IMG/VR virus record: IMGVR_UViG_3300033182_000800
Location: 1-53,410 of that record
Source: a virus
Strand: one strand, 5' to 3'
Length of the DNA stretch: 53,410 nt
This document shows positions 33,019-47,346 of the stretch, piece after piece; the stretch's first letter is position 1; each line of letters opens with the position of its first letter. The notes under the pieces are model-generated. The model was given only the letters and a program-made list of their open reading frames with translations. It did no database searches and was not told the DNA's origin. Position numbers and translations under genes: made by a program.

Positions 33019-34763
33019 TGGCAGCAACATTAGATGATGTAGTTAAGGCAATACGAGAAGGAAACGAAGGAACAGCAACTCAACAAGCCAAAGCTGCAGA
33101 ACAAGCAAATGAACAAAAAGTCTACGACAATCAAGTTCTAGCTACTCTCTCTTCCATATCTGATGCAATCAAGGGAATAACTCCATTTAAAATTCAAGAG
33201 ACTGATAGTAAAGGATTCCTTGGCAAAATTCTCACTTCATTTGGACTTATTGGTGCAGGAGCTGCTGGTCTTGCGGTAGGATTGGTTGGTGGATGGACTG
33301 TATTTGTTGCAGATTTAGTTAGGGATCTTGGTAAATTACTTATGAAATTTATTAATGCAATCCCTAGACCTCAATTTGTTGATGATATAATTGCAGCATT
33401 TAAAGCAGATGGAAAGGTAGGACAGTTTTTCACAAAAATCAAAAACTTTTTTGTAGGAGAAACAGGATTTATAAAAAGAATTAGCACGGTTGTAGATACT
33501 GTAGTAGATTCAGTCAAAGGTTTCACTGGTGGTATATTCACAAAAATATCTAATTTTTTTGTAGGTGAAACTAGTGTATTCAAACGAATCGGAACAATTG
33601 TAGACACTACAGTAGATGCAGTCAAAGGATTTACTGGTGGTATATTCACAAAAATTGGAAACTTTTTTAGTAAGTCTAGTGTATTATCAAAAATAGGGAC
33701 CACTGTAGATGGAGTGATGGATACTTTAAAAGCATTTGGTGGTGGAGTATTTGATGGTATAAAGAATGTATTTACAAAATTAAAATCTATAGGTTCTACT
33801 TTAATGTCACCATTTGAAGCTATAAGTGGTGTATTTGGAAATGTAACTGATAAAGGTGGTGGGATACTGGATACTATCATGAAGTTTATCAATCCATTCA
33901 AAGGTGTATTTCAAACTTTTGCAAGGATAGGATCTAAACTTGCAGCACCACTCTCTATCATCATGGGTCTATTTGATGCAGGATTTGAAACAAAAGATGC
34001 AGTAGAAAAGAGTGAGGGAGTATTTGCAACCCTCCTTAATGGACTTATCGGAGCAATGGGTGGATTTATAGATGGAGCTGTAATTCAGGTGGCAGATTTT
34101 CTAAAGGATGGAATTGCAACAGTATTGGGATTTTTTGGATTTGAAGAGACTGAAAAGGCAATGAAAGATATTTCTTTTTCCAAGAGTTTTAATGAGATGC
34201 TAGATAAAGTCTATGCATTTGTAAATGATTTGTTTGACATAGATTTTGATGCTTTGGCAAAGTCTATAATGCCAGAAAGTATCTATAACTTCTTATTTGG
34301 AGATAAGGCAGAACAAATTGCTGATTTAGAAGCCAAGATTAAAGAAGCTAGAGAAAGTGGGCCAGAAGAAAATCTCTTTAGTGCAGATGAAACTCAGGAA
34401 GAATTTAATAAGAGAATTGCAGGTTTAACTGCAGAGTTGGAAAAATTAAAAGGAGTAAAAGGATTCAAAACTGGTGGTCTTGTGACAGGAAGTGGACTTG
34501 CAATGTTACATGGATCACAAAGTGCACCAGAATTAGTATTAGATAATCAAGCTACTGAAGTCTTTCTCAAAGCAGCAAACTTACTTACGAATTCACAAGC
34601 ATTGGAAAGAATGAGAGGTGGTTCACCAGTTGTAATCAATAATGTAAACAATAGCCAAAATAACCCAGTAATATCAAATCAAGCTACAACTATGAAAGTA
34701 CCTGATGCAGTACGTTCTGGTGAACCATCATTTGGAATGGCTGCTAGAGCCATGATGAATTAA
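33018..34763 (+). CDS. 29: tail tape measure protein (gp29-like)
   Basis: A 581-residue protein, close to T4 gp29 (590 aa) in length, which fits a T4-length tail. It has an N-terminal helix, a hydrophobic segment at residues ~70-105 (GLIGAGAAGLAVGLVGGWTVFVADLV), three 36-residue tandem repeats (residues ~138-250) and a second hydrophobic region (~300-380). A helical C-terminal part with coiled-coil (IADLEAKIKEARESG, ELEKLKG) follows. The motif FKTGGLVTGSGLAMLHGSQSAPELVLDNQATE near the end is a frequent tape-measure C-terminal signature. The stop overlaps tail to tail with the gp32 stop. Confidence 0.88.
   Translation: MAATLDDVVKAIREGNEGTATQQAKAAEQANEQKVYDNQVLATLSSISDAIKGITPFKIQETDSKGFLGKILTSFGLIGAGAAGLAVGLVGGWTVFVADLVRDLGKLLMKFINAIPRPQFVDDIIAAFKADGKVGQFFTKIKNFFVGETGFIKRISTVVDTVVDSVKGFTGGIFTKISNFFVGETSVFKRIGTIVDTTVDAVKGFTGGIFTKIGNFFSKSSVLSKIGTTVDGVMDTLKAFGGGVFDGIKNVFTKLKSIGSTLMSPFEAISGVFGNVTDKGGGILDTIMKFINPFKGVFQTFARIGSKLAAPLSIIMGLFDAGFETKDAVEKSEGVFATLLNGLIGAMGGFIDGAVIQVADFLKDGIATVLGFFGFEETEKAMKDISFSKSFNEMLDKVYAFVNDLFDIDFDALAKSIMPESIYNFLFGDKAEQIADLEAKIKEARESGPEENLFSADETQEEFNKRIAGLTAELEKLKGVKGFKTGGLVTGSGLAMLHGSQSAPELVLDNQATEVFLKAANLLTNSQALERMRGGSPVVINNVNNSQNNPVISNQATTMKVPDAVRSGEPSFGMAARAMMN
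33429..33752 (+). repeat. 108-bp tandem repeats inside the tape measure gene
   Basis: The segment beginning ttcacaaaaat recurs at 33429, 33537 and 33645, exactly 108 bp (36 codons) apart. The encoded unit is FTKI-NFF-VGET-FKRI-T-VDT-VD-VKGFTGGI; the third copy is diverged in its second half. Because tape-measure length sets tail length, copy number here could tune tail length. Confidence 0.9.
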
Positions 34764-35351
34764 GCAGTCTCTGCCAACTTTTGGAAATAGTCTAAAGACT
34801 CATCATCTTCATCCTGTTCCGCTGGTTTTGTTGGTGGTGTATATGCCTCACCCCCATCAAATGGAACCTCTTGTTGTTTAGGTTTTGACATCTCACCCAA
34901 ACCAAGTACACGATCCAACTTCTCTTTCAGTTCGTCATAAGACTTGAACTTGTCGGCACTCACCAACTCTTTTAGAGAAAACTGACTGTTCCAGATTTCT
35001 TCCATCCGTTCATCATCCTCAAGAAGAGCAGATGGTGTATCAAACTCTGACTTATCATAGTTTGAATATCCTTCAACTTTACGAATCTTCATCTTGAAGT
35101 TCGCACCTTCCCAGAGATCAAATGGATTTACTGGTGATTCATCCTCAAACTCAGGATTCATGAGGTCATTAATCTTATCAAAGATTTTCTTACCATAACG
35201 GAAGAGTTTTACCTGTCCCTCATTTTGAGGATTGGCAGGATCTTTGACCACATATACATTTGAGATATAGGTCAGACGCCGTTTCTGTTTTCGTGCAATC
35301 TCTTTGTTGGCCTCAATACCTGAATTCCAAAGGACCGAGTTGTGTTCAGAT
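34760..35351 (-). CDS. 32: gp32 single-stranded DNA-binding protein, exon 2
   Basis: This exon encodes the C-terminal 197 codons of gp32 after intron removal. It begins with the last base of a split Val codon and reads SEHNSVLWNSG, then KEIARKQKRRLTYISNVYVVKDPANPQNEGQVKLFRYGKKIFDKI, aligning with T4 gp32 (LVVKDPAAPENEGKVF...YRFGKKIWDKI). PWEGANF corresponds to FDLWEGANF here. It ends with an acidic tail (EQDEDDESLDYF), the region that contacts replication partners in T4. The Cys ligands of T4 gp32 zinc are absent, as in marine relatives. The stop shares TTAA with the convergent tape-measure stop. Confidence 0.95.
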
Positions 35352-35439
35352 CGTTTATGTTCAAATAGAGTCGTTAATTCTATTCCGTTCTCTTATGAAC
35401 TGCTTCTACTTTCATAGAAGACCAGACTATATCTTTTTC

Positions 35440-36408
35440 TCAAAGAGAAAGATTGCATTTCGGATCACTTGATCCTACTCCATTTAGGATAGTCGTTGAA
35501 CCTTCACCATACCATATTGGGTTAGGTGCTTGGCTGCTGATTGCCCAATCTAATAATTTTTTAGAACTGTCAAGTTTGCGATTTCTCGCTTCGTGTTTTG
35601 ATATTACCAATAAGCATATAGAATAACCCGAATCAATTGATGCTTGACACTTTTTCATAACAACATCATAATGTTGTTTAAGTGTATATTCAGATTTGAC
35701 CTCAATCAATAAATTTTGGTTGTGTAAGTAAAAATCAGGAAAATATATTCTTTTTTTATTATTATGAAAATATCCTACTGTAGGCACTTCACTTTTACCA
35801 ATTTTTATATCATTTTTACCTAAATGATAATCATTGATTAACGATTCTAATGCAATAGGTTCGTATCCTTGCAAAGTAACAATTGTATCAAAAAATGGAT
35901 ATGGTTTATAACCAGAACGTCCACCATAGTTACCTAATCTATTTTTTGTTTCCATCATTTTCATAAGAGCATTTTTTTTAGTCTCTTCTGATCTTGACAG
36001 ATAAGCAGTTTTAGAATGGTTGGAATAATATTCTGTTTCGGTTATTCCCATATTGACACATTTTTGTTGAATAGTTTTTTTTCGCTTTTCAACATTATTA
36101 CTCCATTTTTTTGTATTACGATAATGTTTGAACGAATCAAGTGCTTCTGGATTATTAATAAATCTATTTTTTACTGATAATCTATGGGCATCTGATTTGC
36201 AAGCACACACATCACTACAATAATCCCGATACGAAAAAGATTTATACGTAGTTTCTTTACCACAATAACAAATACCTTCATTCGGAGATTTATAAAATTT
36301 ATCATAATATTCCTTAGAAGTCATTTTTAATGTTCTTAAATGATTTAAGAAACCTCTCATAGTATTAAATCTTTTGTTTGTTACTTTACATTGTTTCCAT
36401 ATTTCCAT
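35440..36408 (-). CDS. intron-encoded homing endonuclease (PD-(D/E)XK type)
   Basis: A 322-residue protein encoded wholly in the gp32 intron. Residues 1-70 form an N-terminal DNA-binding-like region (VTNKRFNTMRGFLNHLRTLKMTSKEYYDKFY, then C47/C49 and C64/C68/C70, a possible zinc site) often fused to phage homing nucleases. Residues 222-240 (YFPDFYLHNQNLLIEVKSE) give the catalytic P224-D225 ... E236-x-K238 of the Vsr/EDxHD-like PD-(D/E)XK group. AAAGG lies 7 nt before ATG 36408. Its last ~20 codons are intron core sequence. It presumably cleaves intron-less gene 32 to spread the intron. Confidence 0.9.
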   Translation of the reverse strand: MEIWKQCKVTNKRFNTMRGFLNHLRTLKMTSKEYYDKFYKSPNEGICYCGKETTYKSFSYRDYCSDVCACKSDAHRLSVKNRFINNPEALDSFKHYRNTKKWSNNVEKRKKTIQQKCVNMGITETEYYSNHSKTAYLSRSEETKKNALMKMMETKNRLGNYGGRSGYKPYPFFDTIVTLQGYEPIALESLINDYHLGKNDIKIGKSEVPTVGYFHNNKKRIYFPDFYLHNQNLLIEVKSEYTLKQHYDVVMKKCQASIDSGYSICLLVISKHEARNRKLDSSKKLLDWAISSQAPNPIWYGEGSTTILNGVGSSDPKCNLSL

Positions 36409-36424
36409 AAATACCTTTCAATAG

Positions 36425-36432
36425 TATTTATA
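36425..36432 (-). promoter_or_regulatory. late-type promoter inside the intron
   Basis: The minus strand reads TATAAATA, the T4 late -10 element, 16 nt before the endonuclease ATG and with the AAAGG site between them. Late expression of an intron-encoded nuclease matches the arrangement known for I-TevI in the T4 td intron. Confidence 0.65.
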
Positions 36433-36539
36433 AAATATCAGAATTTAACACTCTACTTTGTAGTATTATTAGCTTAAGGGGTTTCCAGCAATTAACAATC
36501 AGTTTCAGTGAATAATCGCTTATTCAAGCCGCTAAATCA

Positions 36540-36817
36540 ACGGGATCTTTTTGTCCAAGAGTGGTCAGAGAGTTCTCAATGTACCAGCCACCTGGCCCCT
36601 GAAACCCATGATTCCAGATACGTGCCCATGGCAGATCTTCTCCATTCGGAGCCGGAAGAAAACGAATGATGGCATAACCATTACCTGACTTGTCCAACTC
36701 TGGACGCCAGTAACGATCATCTGTATCACCGAAGTTTGAATTTGAGATTTTTTCAGTCTCTTTGATAAGAGTTGAAAGGTTGGTCTTACTACGTTTTTTC
36801 ATTTCTGCAAACGACAT
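36540..36817 (-). CDS. 32: gp32 single-stranded DNA-binding protein, exon 1
   Basis: This exon encodes the first 92 codons plus two bases of the Val codon. It starts MSFAEMKKRSKTNL and contains the conserved LDKSGNGYAIIRFLPAPN (T4: LDNAGNGQAVIRFLPSKN) and WNHGFQGPGGWYIENS (T4: NHGFKKNGKWYIETCS). The start at 36817 is chosen because AAGGAG lies 6 nt upstream; an upstream TTG adds seven implausible residues. Without splicing the frame would stop after DLAA. gp32 coats ssDNA and coordinates replication and recombination. Confidence 0.95.
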
Positions 36818-36860
36818 ATAACTCCTTTTTATGTGCAATGTATTAACAACGTATAAAAGT

Positions 36861-39180: not shown

Positions 39181-39411
39181 CTATGTTATATAATTAAACC
39201 TCCACTCATCGTCTTGCCATGAAACTCTACATAAACCTGCACTGTAAGGTAGTCTGAAATCTTTATACTTTACTCCATTCTCCTTTTCATGCAATTCTCT
39301 GATAAGATAATAAGGAGGCATATTTTCGCGGACTACATCTCTCTCAAATCTTTTTCTAATCTCATTCATTTGAGATGATCCTGTTGGATCATTTTGTAAA
39401 CCACCTGACAT
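39181..39411 (-). CDS. small conserved-looking protein downstream of tmRNA
   Basis: A 76-residue protein beginning MSGGLQNDPTGSSQMNEIRKRFERDVV and ending DDEWRFNYIT. Start 39411 is chosen because GAAAGGATAT precedes it; the frame stays open upstream but that part overlaps the tmRNA 3' hairpin. It is hydrophilic, with no membrane segment and no recognised domain. Its start lies ~15 nt after the tmRNA coding piece, so it is probably expressed from the same primary transcript. Confidence 0.75.
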   Translation of the reverse strand: MSGGLQNDPTGSSQMNEIRKRFERDVVRENMPPYYLIRELHEKENGVKYKDFRLPYSAGLCRVSWQDDEWRFNYIT

Positions 39412-39469
39412 ATATCCTTTCTTTGTGGGAGTCTTCTGTTCCCAAGCGACTCCCAAACTCGGCTATCAG

Positions 39470-39523
39470 TTACGCAGCGAGTGCATAATATTCTGATGCA
39501 GAAATATAATCGTTATTATTTGC
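39470..39523 (-). other. tmRNA proteolysis-tag reading frame
   Basis: Resume codon GCA (39523-39521) opens a 17-codon frame ending in TAA (39472-39470), encoding ANNNDYISASEYYALAA. The terminal ALAA is the universal recognition signal for ClpXP and related proteases. The -ATAATC- before GCA matches the -ATAGTC- that positions the frame in E. coli tmRNA. Confidence 0.93.
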
Positions 39524-39605
39524 GATTATGTTTAGTTGATGTTGGTCATCACCCTATTTGTTCTCACTACTACTCTCACTACCAATCGAATCCATAACGC
39601 CCCCA

Positions 39606-39692
39606 TCATAATAACACTGCTTCCATAACCCAGATAAATCCTGCAGTTCCTATCAATATAACAACTGTAAAAAATATTAGGTCACCATCCAT
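39606..39692 (-). CDS. 28-aa membrane peptide encoded in the tmRNA intervening segment
   Basis: ATG 39692 is preceded by GGAG with 7 nt spacing and opens a 28-codon frame ending in TGA (39608-39606). It starts MDGDLIFFTVVILIGTAG and is hydrophobic from residue 5 to the end, a single predicted membrane span. It fills most of the 108-nt segment that is cut out during maturation of the permuted tmRNA. Both the Shine-Dalgarno and the composition argue against chance. Function is unknown; small holin-like, antiholin-like or toxin-like peptides have this form. Confidence 0.55.
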   Translation of the reverse strand: MDGDLIFFTVVILIGTAGFIWVMEAVLL

Positions 39693-39777
39693 AAAATGCT
39701 CCAATGCTGTTATGGTGGAGGCGGCCGGAGTTGAACCGGCGTCTTGCTAGTTACCCTTATAGGTCAACGAACAAATA

Positions 39778-40428
39778 CTAGGAATATTTAGTAATCACTT
39801 GTTTCAAAGGTTCTATCCATCTGTCCTTTGTTTCTTTGAACAACAAAGGTTTATCATTTTCAACTGCCATGATAATTACAATATCGTTTATAGAGATTCC
39901 AGTAAGTTCTTCATAAGCATGTGCATAGAAAGCACCTTGCATGAAATACCCATGGCACATCTCCCATGTCTTTTTCTTTCTGGAAGTCTTGTAGTCTATG
40001 ACCGATAGTTTCTCATCAAACTCACCTATCAAGTCTGTTCTTCCAGCAACACCCAAGTCATCAGAATACAATGCACCCTCAACCACATGAATGTTATCTA
40101 TCCTATCCAAAAGTGGCACAATAGAATTAAACATATCTATTGCATCTGGTAAAACACCTTCTAATATTCTCTCTTGGTTCTGGATATACGACTCACAGAT
40201 ATTATGTAAGCGGGTTCCTCTACTGCTCGCCTGTCTACTAATCTTGTTGGCCTCTGCCTCGCCAACCCTTCTTCGCCATTCAATAATTGATTGTTTTGAA
40301 AGGTTACCGAGTAACGAGGTAATACTAACGTACTTATTGCCTTCAGGAGTTGCATAATATCTCTTTCCGTTGATGTTTTCAGTTTTTAAATCTTTAAGGT
40401 CATTACCCACATGATTAAAAGTTTTCAT
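39778..40428 (-). CDS. RecB/MGME1-like PD-(D/E)XK exonuclease
   Basis: A 216-residue protein with the RecB-family nuclease layout: H75 in SRGTRLHNICESYI, E118, D132 in GVAGRTDLIGEF, D145-x-K147 in LSVIDYKTSRKKK, and Q164 in YFMQGAFYAHAYEEL. This set (H-D-DxK-Q) is the catalytic core shared by RecB, Cas4 and the mitochondrial MGME1 exonuclease, and T4-like marine phages often carry such proteins. It likely processes DNA ends during replication, recombination or host DNA degradation. It ends just where the tmRNA precursor begins and follows the zinc-ribbon gene by 2 nt. Confidence 0.9.
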   Translation of the reverse strand: MKTFNHVGNDLKDLKTENINGKRYYATPEGNKYVSITSLLGNLSKQSIIEWRRRVGEAEANKISRQASSRGTRLHNICESYIQNQERILEGVLPDAIDMFNSIVPLLDRIDNIHVVEGALYSDDLGVAGRTDLIGEFDEKLSVIDYKTSRKKKTWEMCHGYFMQGAFYAHAYEELTGISINDIVIIMAVENDKPLLFKETKDRWIEPLKQVITKYS

Positions 40429-43321: not shown

Positions 43322-44155
43322 TCAAAACTCGTCAAGATGTTCCATAAGATTCTTCAATCTCTTTTCAGTGAAGTATTCCAATAATCTACCATGTGGCGGA
43401 ACCTGTTCTCTGAACTGATTGATAATATTTATACGAATTGATTCTGGGGTTTTTTCCAAATCCACCATCATTTCATTGCGATTGAAGTTCCTTTTCATAT
43501 CCTCATTCCAATCACTGCGATCAGTCTTCCACAATTCCATCTTCTTTTTTGACACAGGCCTCTGTCGCTTACCTTCTGTGACAAGTGTATCATCAGATGA
43601 GAGTATGTTTGGCACACCATCACCAACATCACCCTTGATCAGTTTTTCCCAAAGTGATTCTTCTGGATTACCTTTCACGAAACTCTTTGTCAAAGGTGAC
43701 CACTGCTGAACCCCTTCATATTTTTGTAATTGAATAAAGTCTTTGTCACTTGATATAATCGTAGTAGGATTCTTCATTTCTTCCTGTATCAAAACAGCAA
43801 TAATATCATCTGCCTCTGCACCCTCCACTCTCATTACTTTGTATGGGAAGTATTCTTGCAAGTCTGCAATCATTTGATGTAGAAACTCAAAAAGAGAAGT
43901 CCAATCTGTTGAATCGGTTTCTCTTCTCTTCTTTCTGTTTGCCTTGTATTCTGGAAAAGACTCTTTCCGCCAGTTCTTTGGCGAGTCACAACAAATAACA
44001 AACCCGCCATGATCAACATGCCTGAATTGATGTTTGTATTGTCTAATTGAATTTAATACTGTATGTCGTAAAAGGTCTTCTTCTACAACAATACTACCCC
44101 TTCCAAGTGACATAAAGGTGCCGATCATTGTTTGACTGAAATCTAGGAGTATCAT
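43322..44155 (-). CDS. rnh: RNase H / 5'-3' exonuclease (FEN-like, T4 Rnh)
   Basis: A 277-residue homologue of T4 RNase H, which removes RNA primers and flaps of Okazaki fragments. Metal-binding acidic residues appear in ILLDFSQTMIGT, HGGFVICCDSPKNWRKESFPEYKANRKKRRE, VEGAEADDIIAVLI and TIISSDKDFIQLQ, with the H3TH-like GDVGDGVPNILS. Length is close to T4 Rnh (305 aa). Its position upstream of gp33 and gp32 on the same strand resembles the T4 rnh-33-59-32 block. Confidence 0.95.
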   Translation of the reverse strand: MILLDFSQTMIGTFMSLGRGSIVVEEDLLRHTVLNSIRQYKHQFRHVDHGGFVICCDSPKNWRKESFPEYKANRKKRRETDSTDWTSLFEFLHQMIADLQEYFPYKVMRVEGAEADDIIAVLIQEEMKNPTTIISSDKDFIQLQKYEGVQQWSPLTKSFVKGNPEESLWEKLIKGDVGDGVPNILSSDDTLVTEGKRQRPVSKKKMELWKTDRSDWNEDMKRNFNRNEMMVDLEKTPESIRINIINQFREQVPPHGRLLEYFTEKRLKNLMEHLDEF

Positions 44156-44170
44156 AATTATTTCTTTGTG

Positions 44171-45157
44171 TTAGTGTTTCTCTGCTTCTATATTCTCCTT
44201 CAAACTGGTCAAGAACGCAGACCATTGGTTTATACGTGCCTTCCAATCGTAAAAGAGATCAAAATAGTTTTTCTGCAGATCCAATAAGGATTGAGTACCA
44301 TCTTCCCAATATGAGTTGATGGCTTTTGCCAGAATATGTGCATGAACCTGCACATGTCTGTCAGGATTAGGTTCATAACCATACATAAATGCAAAGTTTG
44401 CACAAGTCTCTGGAAGTGCACCCAGATTTGGACACACAACCAGATTTTTTGCAGACATTGCCTCTATTGCACTAATACATGCAGTCTCCATATATGTGCT
44501 TGGATATGCAAGTATATGTGATGTTTGTAGCTCCTCCCTAATTGTTTCATTCGGTACTGAACCAGAGTAATGGACTTGATCCATTTCCTCTGCCTTTCTA
44601 TACACATGCCTGAACTGCTCATCCATGTGTGGTCTATCGTATATCTTAAAACTTGAGAATATCTTGAGTTCTGCTTTGTCAACTGCCTCACTCTTCATGT
44701 TCTCTTTCATCATCTTCCATGACTCAAGCAGAATTTCAAGTCCTCTATGTGGTGTAGAGATATAAGAACAAACTATCTTATCATCTGGTTTCTCATGTTT
44801 GGGAATTGGATCTATGGCATGTTGAATGACCACACCATGATCATAAGGCACTCCAAGATACACACCATACTGATATTGTTGCCAGTGAGAAACAAAAATA
44901 ATTTTCTCAAAGTCAAGCATGTTCTTGTGTTCTTTGAGGAATTCTACTTCAGGATCTTGAGCTAGATCATGGACCCAAAACAATCTTGGTTTATCTTCTA
45001 GTGTTCTTTTTCTGGAAGCAATAAATTGAAAGTAGTCTTTTAATTCTGGATCTAGTCTGTCAAATAACCACTTTTGGATTAACTCGGTGCCTCCCATTGC
45101 CTTGGGAGTATCTTCTGGGGCAAGATCGTTTTCTGAAAAGTCTATTTTTAAGTCCAT
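44171..45157 (-). CDS. GT4-type glycosyltransferase
   Basis: A 328-residue protein of the GT-B glycosyltransferase 1 group. It includes KAMGGTELIQKWLFDRL (Gly-rich N-terminal loop), FWVHDLAQDP, IFVSHWQQYQYG, and the donor-site region VHYSGSVPNETIREELQTSHILAYPSTYMETACISAIEAMSAKNLVVCPNLGALPE with the E-x7-E motif. Likely activity is sugar transfer to host surface glycans, virion protein or modified DNA bases; the acceptor cannot be read from sequence. GGAG lies 7 nt before the ATG. Expression is from the promoter at 45312-45339 through a structured leader. Confidence 0.9.
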   Translation of the reverse strand: MDLKIDFSENDLAPEDTPKAMGGTELIQKWLFDRLDPELKDYFQFIASRKRTLEDKPRLFWVHDLAQDPEVEFLKEHKNMLDFEKIIFVSHWQQYQYGVYLGVPYDHGVVIQHAIDPIPKHEKPDDKIVCSYISTPHRGLEILLESWKMMKENMKSEAVDKAELKIFSSFKIYDRPHMDEQFRHVYRKAEEMDQVHYSGSVPNETIREELQTSHILAYPSTYMETACISAIEAMSAKNLVVCPNLGALPETCANFAFMYGYEPNPDRHVQVHAHILAKAINSYWEDGTQSLLDLQKNYFDLFYDWKARINQWSAFLTSLKENIEAEKH

Positions 45158-45171
45158 TATATCTCCATGTT

Positions 45172-45303
45172 GAGGTATCGCCCAGACAACTTCGGCTGGG
45201 CCACATCATTTTTCGGGGTATGAGTATGAACAGGTTATGACTAGCTGAAGGACAGCATAGACGGAGAGGTTGTTCACCCCGATTACCCTGAGCGATACGA
45301 GAT
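45172..45303 (-). ncRNA. structured 5' leader RNA of the glycosyltransferase gene
   Basis: Between promoter and gene the RNA folds into nested, perfectly complementary helices. P1 is GTATCGC (45175-45181) with GCGATAC (45292-45298) and closes the whole element. A hairpin GCCCAG/CTGGGC lies at 45180-45201. A helix CGGGGT + GAACA (45214-45219, 45228-45232) pairs with TGTTC + ACCCCG (45271-45281) with an 8-nt bulge. A terminal hairpin CTAGCTG/CAGC-TAG lies at 45241-45260. P1 begins a few nt after the expected transcription start and ends just before the Shine-Dalgarno. Geometry is that of a riboswitch or other cis-regulatory RNA; the class is not assigned. Confidence 0.7.
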
Positions 45304-45311
45304 TTACTCTT

Positions 45312-45339
45312 ATTGTATCATGAAATATTTATTTGTCAA
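45312..45339 (-). promoter_or_regulatory. sigma70-type promoter for the structured leader and glycosyltransferase
   Basis: Minus strand TTGACA (45339-45334), 16-nt spacer, TACAAT (45317-45312). The -35 lies in the last codons of the upstream gene. Predicted start (~45305) is immediately before helix P1 of the leader RNA. Confidence 0.8.
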
Positions 45340-46117: not shown

Positions 46118-46417
46118 TTAGGCTACTTTATACATTGTATAAGTCCAAGTTAATTCCTCACCCGCAACAACATCACGTTTCGTGCGAAGATACCAACCTG
46201 CACCATTCTCTAATGAATCCCAAAACTTTTCACAAGTAGGGTCATCAGAATGATTTCCAAAAGCACCCAAGGGAGTTCGCATCAATTCACCATTGAATTC
46301 AAAATGAATCATCCCCAAAGACATACCCTTTGGAATATCAGTTTTAGCAAACAAACCCAGACCATGAATGCCCGAGTCCTTTATTGTGACCACATCTGGT
46401 AAAGGTTTGTATGACAT
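46118..46417 (-). CDS. minimal SET-domain lysine methyltransferase
   Basis: A 99-residue protein consisting of little more than a SET domain. It has SGIHGLGLFAKTDIPKGMSLG (the GxG SAM-loop and first strands; G17, G19, G21), FGNHSDDP with N55-H56-S57 (the NH(S/C) pseudoknot motif) and AGEELTWTYTMY with E88 and Y93 (catalytic Tyr region). All core motifs are present, so it should bind SAM and methylate a protein lysine. It is even shorter than the viral vSET of chlorella virus (119 aa). Its start overlaps the glycosyltransferase end by 37 nt. The target is unknown. Confidence 0.87.
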   Translation of the reverse strand: MSYKPLPDVVTIKDSGIHGLGLFAKTDIPKGMSLGMIHFEFNGELMRTPLGAFGNHSDDPTCEKFWDSLENGAGWYLRTKRDVVAGEELTWTYTMYKVA

Positions 46418-47346
46418 TTTTTATCTATCCAATCTTGCCCTAACACAAGATTTAATTCTTCATATAATAAGGAACCAACTTTGATAGTCTGCCAAAAATC
46501 ATTAGTTAGTCTATCTGCATTCTTAAAAGCAGATTCAAAGAAATGTTGCACACAATATGACTCCTGCAAGATTTGGTCAATTGACGGCAACACATATCCA
46601 TATACATTAGTTATACCATCCAGTTTTGTTGGCGCATCTAAAGAATAACACTTTCCAGCAGATTTCCAAGCAGGGAAAGGTGTAGTGTCAATCGGTTTCA
46701 TCACATGCACATTATCATACCGATTGGCAATATCCTTCAGAGTCCACATTACATAATTCCAGCCTTTAGTACCCTTCGTTGGTGGTTTGGAAAGTGATGA
46801 CTCAATTTTACTGCACAGTTCTTCCACATCCTCTGTTATTGAGTTGTGTACTTTCATAGGAAAGACAGAAAGTGCTTTACCATCCCAAGAACCATCCTTG
46901 ATTCTGAAAGGTGGATGATTATCTTTGAACTGAATAGCCATGGCACCAGTAGTCTTGGCAGCCATAGTTGATGTAAAAGTATCTATCTCAGGAAACGGCC
47001 GAAGAATAATGTTGTCAATATCCATGACAACTGCTTCGTGTTCTACCGCTGACCTCAAACGTACCACATCTGATATATGAGCAATACTATGTCCTCTTTT
47101 GAGAGCAGAAAAGGCATCTTCTGCTGGAAAGTATTGATGCCCATCCTCAACAGATATTTCTGGTGGAATGGGCACAGACTCATCAAAATTTTGGTATGTG
47201 TAAAGACGTACAGTATTACCAGCCTTCACATGCGATAACAAAGTTGCCTCATGAAAAGTAGAGAGACTTATCCTTCTGTGTCGCCAGTGGTTGAAAGTCT
47301 CACTATCTTTCCTGAGATTTGAACTCCAAAACAAAGATATATTCAT
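46381..47346 (-). CDS. DXD-type glycosyltransferase (GT32-like)
   Basis: A 321-residue protein with the GT-A DXD-sugar layout: HISDVVRLRSAVEHEAVVMDIDNIILRPF, where D109-x-D111 is the metal/nucleotide-sugar motif, preceded by VRLYTYQNFDESVPIPP. This arrangement (SDxxRxxxL...DxD) fits the Gly_transf_sug group (OCH1, alpha-1,4-galactosyltransferase-like). Its ATG overlaps the upstream stop. With the other glycosyltransferase it suggests a phage glycan-modification function. Acceptor unknown. Confidence 0.85.
   Translation of the reverse strand: MNISLFWSSNLRKDSETFNHWRHRRISLSTFHEATLLSHVKAGNTVRLYTYQNFDESVPIPPEISVEDGHQYFPAEDAFSALKRGHSIAHISDVVRLRSAVEHEAVVMDIDNIILRPFPEIDTFTSTMAAKTTGAMAIQFKDNHPPFRIKDGSWDGKALSVFPMKVHNSITEDVEELCSKIESSLSKPPTKGTKGWNYVMWTLKDIANRYDNVHVMKPIDTTPFPAWKSAGKCYSLDAPTKLDGITNVYGYVLPSIDQILQESYCVQHFFESAFKNADRLTNDFWQTIKVGSLLYEELNLVLGQDWIDKKCHTNLYQMWSQ

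Follow-up and report, generated by a model that had tools for sequence, protein, structure and literature searches.

A structured leader RNA in front of a glycosyltransferase operon of uncultured marine T4-like viruses

Uncultured marine T4-like viruses of bacteria possess a putative mRNA leader, 124 nucleotides (nt) long in the genome studied here, that is a real folded RNA whose shape has been kept by many paired mutations. Covariation shows that it folds as an 11-bp helix (P1) opening into a three-way junction with a P2–P3–P4 arm and a hairpin, P5. In our view it represents a new, previously uncatalogued family of structured phage leader RNA and not a proven riboswitch.

The window, that is, the whole stretch of DNA that was analysed, is a 53,410-base virus record in which the leader RNA and the genes at its locus all lie on the minus strand, the RNA being read downwards from a 5′ end at about 45304. 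A preliminary description of this DNA had seen a promoter, an element of more than 120 nt and then the Shine-Dalgarno sequence (SD) of a glycosyltransferase (GT), and this succession holds, with TTGACA-16-TACAAT at 45339–45312, the 124-nt RNA, GGAG and an ATG at 45157. The features are given below, with percentages for the 58 distinct leaders introduced further on.

45312–45339, minus strand: sigma-70-type promoter TTGACA-16-TACAAT, 11/12 matches, with a TG ahead of the −10 hexamer
45175–45298, minus strand: structured leader RNA, 124 nt from P1 to P1′; 107.5 bits with covariance model R1 (window in its training set); covariation
45288–45298, minus strand: P1 5′ strand, 11 nt, partner 45175–45185; 98.2% canonical, double-sided changes in 11/11 pairs
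45175–45185, minus strand: P1 3′ strand, 11 nt; covariation, 58 leaders
45276–45282, minus strand: P2 5′ strand, partner 45213–45219; 91.7% canonical, double-sided changes in 7/7 pairs
45213–45219, minus strand: P2 3′ strand; covariation, 58 leaders
45271–45275, minus strand: P3 5′ strand, partner 45228–45232; 87.2% canonical, double-sided changes in 4/4 modelled pairs
45228–45232, minus strand: P3 3′ strand; covariation, 58 leaders
45263–45268, minus strand: conserved CUCUCC loop, possible SD partner; UCUC kept at 97–100% per position, 58 leaders
45241–45260, minus strand: P4 hairpin, GUCCUUCAG loop at 45253–45245; 96.1% canonical
45220–45224, minus strand: conserved CUCAU between P3′ and P2′, seen in the alignments; CUCUCAC in subfamily B
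45188–45210, minus strand: P5 hairpin, 3-bp stem of 45208–45210 with 45188–45190; 159/159 cells canonical where present
45163–45166, minus strand: SD GGAG, from the sequence
44171–45157, minus strand: GT, 328 aa, ATG at 45157, first gene after the leader here; PF00534, phrog_2170
43322–44155, minus strand: RNase H-type 5′–3′ exonuclease; PF02739, PF09293
42900–43325, minus strand: DUF6433 protein; PF20025, phrog_461

Elsewhere on the minus strand of the window, 46118–46417 encodes a small SET-domain protein, adjoined at 46381–47346 by a 321-aa open reading frame (ORF) that looks by eye like a DXD sugar transferase and had no match in Pfam or PHROGs. A gp32-type single-strand DNA-binding gene (34760–36838, minus strand) seems to be interrupted by a group I intron (Rfam match at 35403–35635), which carries a DUF7487/TnsA-like endonuclease ORF (35440–36408); the second part of the gene (34760–35251) matches gp32, and the location of the ORF at 36524–36838 suggests that it is the first. 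A permuted two-piece tmRNA with the tag ANNNDYISASEYYALAA, as in Melnitz-like marine phages, lies at 39379–39805 on the minus strand.

Folded as a single sequence, the minus strand exceeds chance by just a moderate margin (−41.3 kcal/mol, z −2.87, 2/200 shuffles as good), and the plus strand folds almost equally well (z −2.32); the proof of the structure is comparative. In A2, for which MAFFT aligned 14 leaders by sequence alone, without fitting to a model and with the long variants L007, L008 and L011 and near copies omitted, P1, P2 and P5 were 100%, 98.0% and 100% canonical, double-sided changes occurred in 21 of the 29 pairs and 0/500 shuffles equalled any measure; P3, being misaligned in A2, reached just 48.2%. 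A larger alignment, fitted to the covariance model, holds 58 distinct leaders (73 contigs minus 15 near copies, with the mismatched L074 and L086 and the weak L211 retained). Here 95.0% of paired cells were canonical against 65.9% after shuffling, and 28 of the 29 pairs showed double-sided changes (501 such cells versus 141 shuffled), so that the compensatory changes on which the preliminary description had staked its reading are present. None of 500 shuffles reached any covariation measure, and sliding the partners by 1–3 columns left 30–41% paired. Among 19 A3 sequences outside the training set, canonical cells numbered 180/187 in P1, 112/126 in P2, 60/70 in P3, 68/72 in P4 and 57/57 in P5.

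The comparison also refines the helices. The perfect 7-bp closing helix that had been described, GUAUCGC/GCGAUAC, is present as the outer part of the 11-bp P1, and what had been taken for three internal helices is better put as consecutive P2 and P3 helices, a P4 and a short P5. The register of P3 shifts between members; P5 shows double-sided changes in two of its three pairs and is absent from 5/58 rows. Further helices were sought among the strongest covarying A3 column pairs, with L074 and L086 left out; these were mostly modelled pairs and added nothing convincing. Unpaired nucleotides conserved across the 58 leaders are GG and AA behind P1, UCUC, AG before P4′, CUC of CUCAU, an A ahead of P5 and the U that precedes P1′, and the loop nucleotides are kept while the helices change. 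When P3, whose alignment is loose, and the final pair of P2 are excluded, G-U cells outnumber A-C cells by 79 to 11, which argues for an RNA of the minus strand rather than for DNA or the opposite strand. In L074 (2866–2973) and L086 (894–1024) the P1 halves are unpaired and each half resembles a different relative; near relatives being present in the same data, these two may have arisen by recombination or as chimeras of assembly.

Searching with the GT brought up 24 viral loci. The RNA lies upstream of the GT in 20 of the 23 loci with at least 75% GT identity (L004, L012 and L022 stop short of the expected leader site), and L024, whose GT is 43% identical, gave no R1 match in its 26.5-kb record. 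R1, built from A2, produced 42 matches in 47 sources, one of them a cut-off fragment (L058). The search was widened by gene-blind pattern scans, which reach just forms near the known ones, and by a search with the upstream ORF, candidates being tested with R1. Matches were found in 36 of the 80 upstream-ORF loci tested, the best 80 of 137 relatives (L211 at just E 0.11), and in 7/40, 17/17 and 13/59 members of further candidate sets, the 13 all on known contigs. Merged by hand according to contig name, the matches amount to 73 contigs including the window, and all 73 carry the GT (54–100% identical) downstream of the RNA, on the same strand and within 2.6 kb.

These leaders form two subfamilies. 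Subfamily A is the window's kind; in subfamily B the GT is about 55% identical, CUCUCACUAC stands where A has CUCAUACC, and the SD is farther away, the interval from the end of P1 to the start codon, within which the SD lies, being 35–48 nt as against 17–27 nt in A. Five members of subfamily B (L198, L225, L236, L211 and L252) are without the P5 hairpin. L202 (stretch start behind 2845) has a short natural form that keeps P1–P3 and caps P3 directly, without P4 and the CUCUC loop. The genomes of six cultured phages (Melnitz-2, phiM12, Cr30, DLP_6, OC and HTVC027P) held no credible copy; the one match, in Melnitz (15 bits, E 0.76), runs antisense inside a coding gene. Searching a phage collection with two leaders by blastn returned nothing relevant, and the single match of one strict pattern in bacterial and archaeal genomes had no R1 match up to E 10.

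A promoter with at least 10 of 12 matches precedes all 58 distinct leaders, both hexamers being perfect in 45. The first gene, among the 55 leaders with an assigned start, is the GT in 29 and an ORF of about 100 aa in 26, where the GT comes later; three samples of this ORF had no Pfam or PHROGs match. Between the small ORF and the GT, L061 has a second GT-like gene and L088 a 174-aa gene that looks oxygenase-like by eye. Among the best 80 of 137 relatives of the upstream ORF, R1 matched in 36 of 40 loci with the GT downstream and in 0/40 without, so that the presence of the RNA follows this arrangement of the operon; the latter 40 mostly have the order GT, ORF, DUF6433, and in the rest no GT turned up in the stretch covered. 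The four GT-downstream loci without an R1 match are L202, L201, L203 and L208. In the last three, an unrelated hairpin (AACATCA...TGATGTT plus seven T), terminator-like, replaces the leader between promoter and SD. That the leader precedes the same GT–RNase H gene block each time suggests control of those genes.

No family in Rfam 15 matched the leader, with hits considered up to E 10 at the window and E 5 in 10 other loci. The preliminary description had been reminded of manA and wcaG RNAs while fitting neither consensus, and the model searches agree: manA (RF01745) and wcaG (RF01761) gave no covariance-model match, with positive controls of 96.6 and 92.7 bits, respectively, in S-CREM1, for which the positions of both RNAs are given in PMC9964418. 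The glnA glutamine riboswitch (RF01739) was likewise rejected as a candidate, no covariance-model match being found in searches whose positive controls covered manA and wcaG. In the reverse direction, an unfiltered R1 search of the S-CREM1 stretch returned nothing better than 11.4 bits, its matches being weak or degenerate and lying outside manA and wcaG. Weinberg et al. 2010 introduce both RNAs as leaders of marine and cyanophage origin (PMC2864571). As described there, manA resembles our RNA in being a structured leader of T4-like marine phages placed before sugar and other genes; in the S-CREM1 alignment it differs in length, helices and conserved motifs, and it occurs in several gene contexts where ours has one. 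The same text presents wcaG as a phage or marine candidate leader often found before exopolysaccharide genes; its 98-nt model consists of separate hairpins, in contrast to the closed three-way junction here.

Melnitz, a T4-like OM43 phage, has been reported with a glutamine riboswitch, which, unlike our leader, is linked to the tmRNA (accessible portion of PMC9004378). Melnitz shares the upstream ORF with the leader loci, but the locus there is GT-less and leaves no room for the leader RNA. For pelagimyophages, one tool reported no riboswitches, according to the available part of PMC7029224. Within the mostly open-access literature covered by our search, as far as the texts were accessible, we found no paper describing the leader. 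Covariation combined with the lack of a match to manA, wcaG or any Rfam family marks it as a new class of 5′-leader RNA, in line with the new cis-regulatory class that had been raised as a possibility at the outset.

The compensatory changes and the constant placement in the 5′ untranslated region, on the coding strand and behind a predicted promoter, are the general marks expected of a cis-acting leader. We favour, with moderate confidence, a reading in which this new family exerts cis-acting, riboswitch-like control of the GT–RNase H–DUF6433 operon by binding. A host-type promoter would start transcription at or just before P1, so that the operon mRNA would begin with the leader RNA; a small molecule or protein would then bind the conserved junction and loop nucleotides, and binding would alter ribosome access to the start site in cis. 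Counting against such a binding switch are the loss of P5 in some members and of P4 with the CUCUC loop in L202. A narrower version, which we put forward tentatively, is a new riboswitch class in which a three-way-junction aptamer, lying at the mRNA 5′ end, responds to a metabolite that reflects the state of the host and thereby exposes or occludes the GT–RNase H start, through a UCUCC–SD pseudoknot in the GT-first lineages and in some other way in the remaining ones. For a riboswitch, the same aptamer would be looked for before several genes of a pathway; here it precedes the same operon in 73/73 contigs, and this single gene context provides no regulon that would hint at a ligand. Given one operon throughout and the ~100-aa ORF as first gene in 26 of 55 leaders, the position near a sugar gene lends a sugar ligand little support.

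The possible switch of the GT-first lineages, in which the UCUCC loop would form a pseudoknot with the SD GGAGA, may not extend to the whole family. Loop–SD pairing averaged −9.59 kcal/mol in the 29 GT-first leaders, with 1/2000 permutations as good (relatedness retained), and −4.03 kcal/mol in the 26 small-ORF-first leaders, with 1990/2000 as good. Over all 55 leaders, 161/2000 permutations were as good (relatedness retained), and in an earlier test of 32 leaders 54/301 were at least as good; both tests left out L074 and L086. Nested folding leaves the SD largely open, at a median unpaired probability of 0.55 in GT-first leaders and 0.80 otherwise. We thus rejected SD sequestration as the general mechanism, since pairing is strong just in the GT-first class and the loop does not fit the SD where the ~100-aa ORF comes first. 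Conservation of the UCUCC loop even where the SD does not fit points to some other role as well.

T4 gp32, gp43 and RegA bind leaders and repress translation. By analogy, our leader could be an autogenous operator to which a phage protein, perhaps a product of the operon itself, binds so as to repress translation. We regard this as unlikely on balance, while acknowledging that the RNA is tied to one operon in 73/73 contigs, whichever gene comes first, and that its distribution is phage-specific. The T4 operators are also leader structures of T4-like mRNAs able to block ribosomes; the fold here is larger and junction-based, and we found no record of RNA-leader binding by GT, RNase H or DUF6433 proteins.

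The start of P1 at or near the predicted transcription start, its rank as the strongest helix and the survival of short forms without P4 or P5 would also suit a ligand-free 5′-end stabiliser or ribosome standby site, in which P1 seals the mRNA against decay or aids loading. A plain stabiliser would have no need of conserved loops, however, and conservation here reaches 90–100% in UCUC, in the CUC of CUCAU and in A residues of the junction, which makes this explanation improbable. We give still less credence to a separate small RNA with its 3′ end made at P1′ and the GT message arising by readthrough or another start. Its own promoter is strong, the terminator-like hairpin takes the place of the leader in L201, L203 and L208, and a T run lies directly behind P1 in L091 and L098, where P1 could itself be a terminator. 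Against this, few members have a T run after P1, the minus strand has no terminator-like site here in the window, and the leader stands constantly close before the SD. A chance inverted repeat or DNA-level element with no functional RNA, to which the modest single-sequence z-scores, alike on both strands, might have pointed, is refuted by covariation far above both controls and by the G-U excess on the transcript strand, and we give it practically no weight.

Few phage leader RNAs combine strong covariation with no known ligand, and this one, from uncultured marine myophages, is at 124 nt a short target for ligand or protein screening. Its natural variants, with P5 lost, P4 lost or the leader swapped for a terminator-like hairpin, offer ready test cases. 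Should the leader be a true riboswitch, these phages would be adjusting their genes for sugar transfer and replication to the condition of the host.
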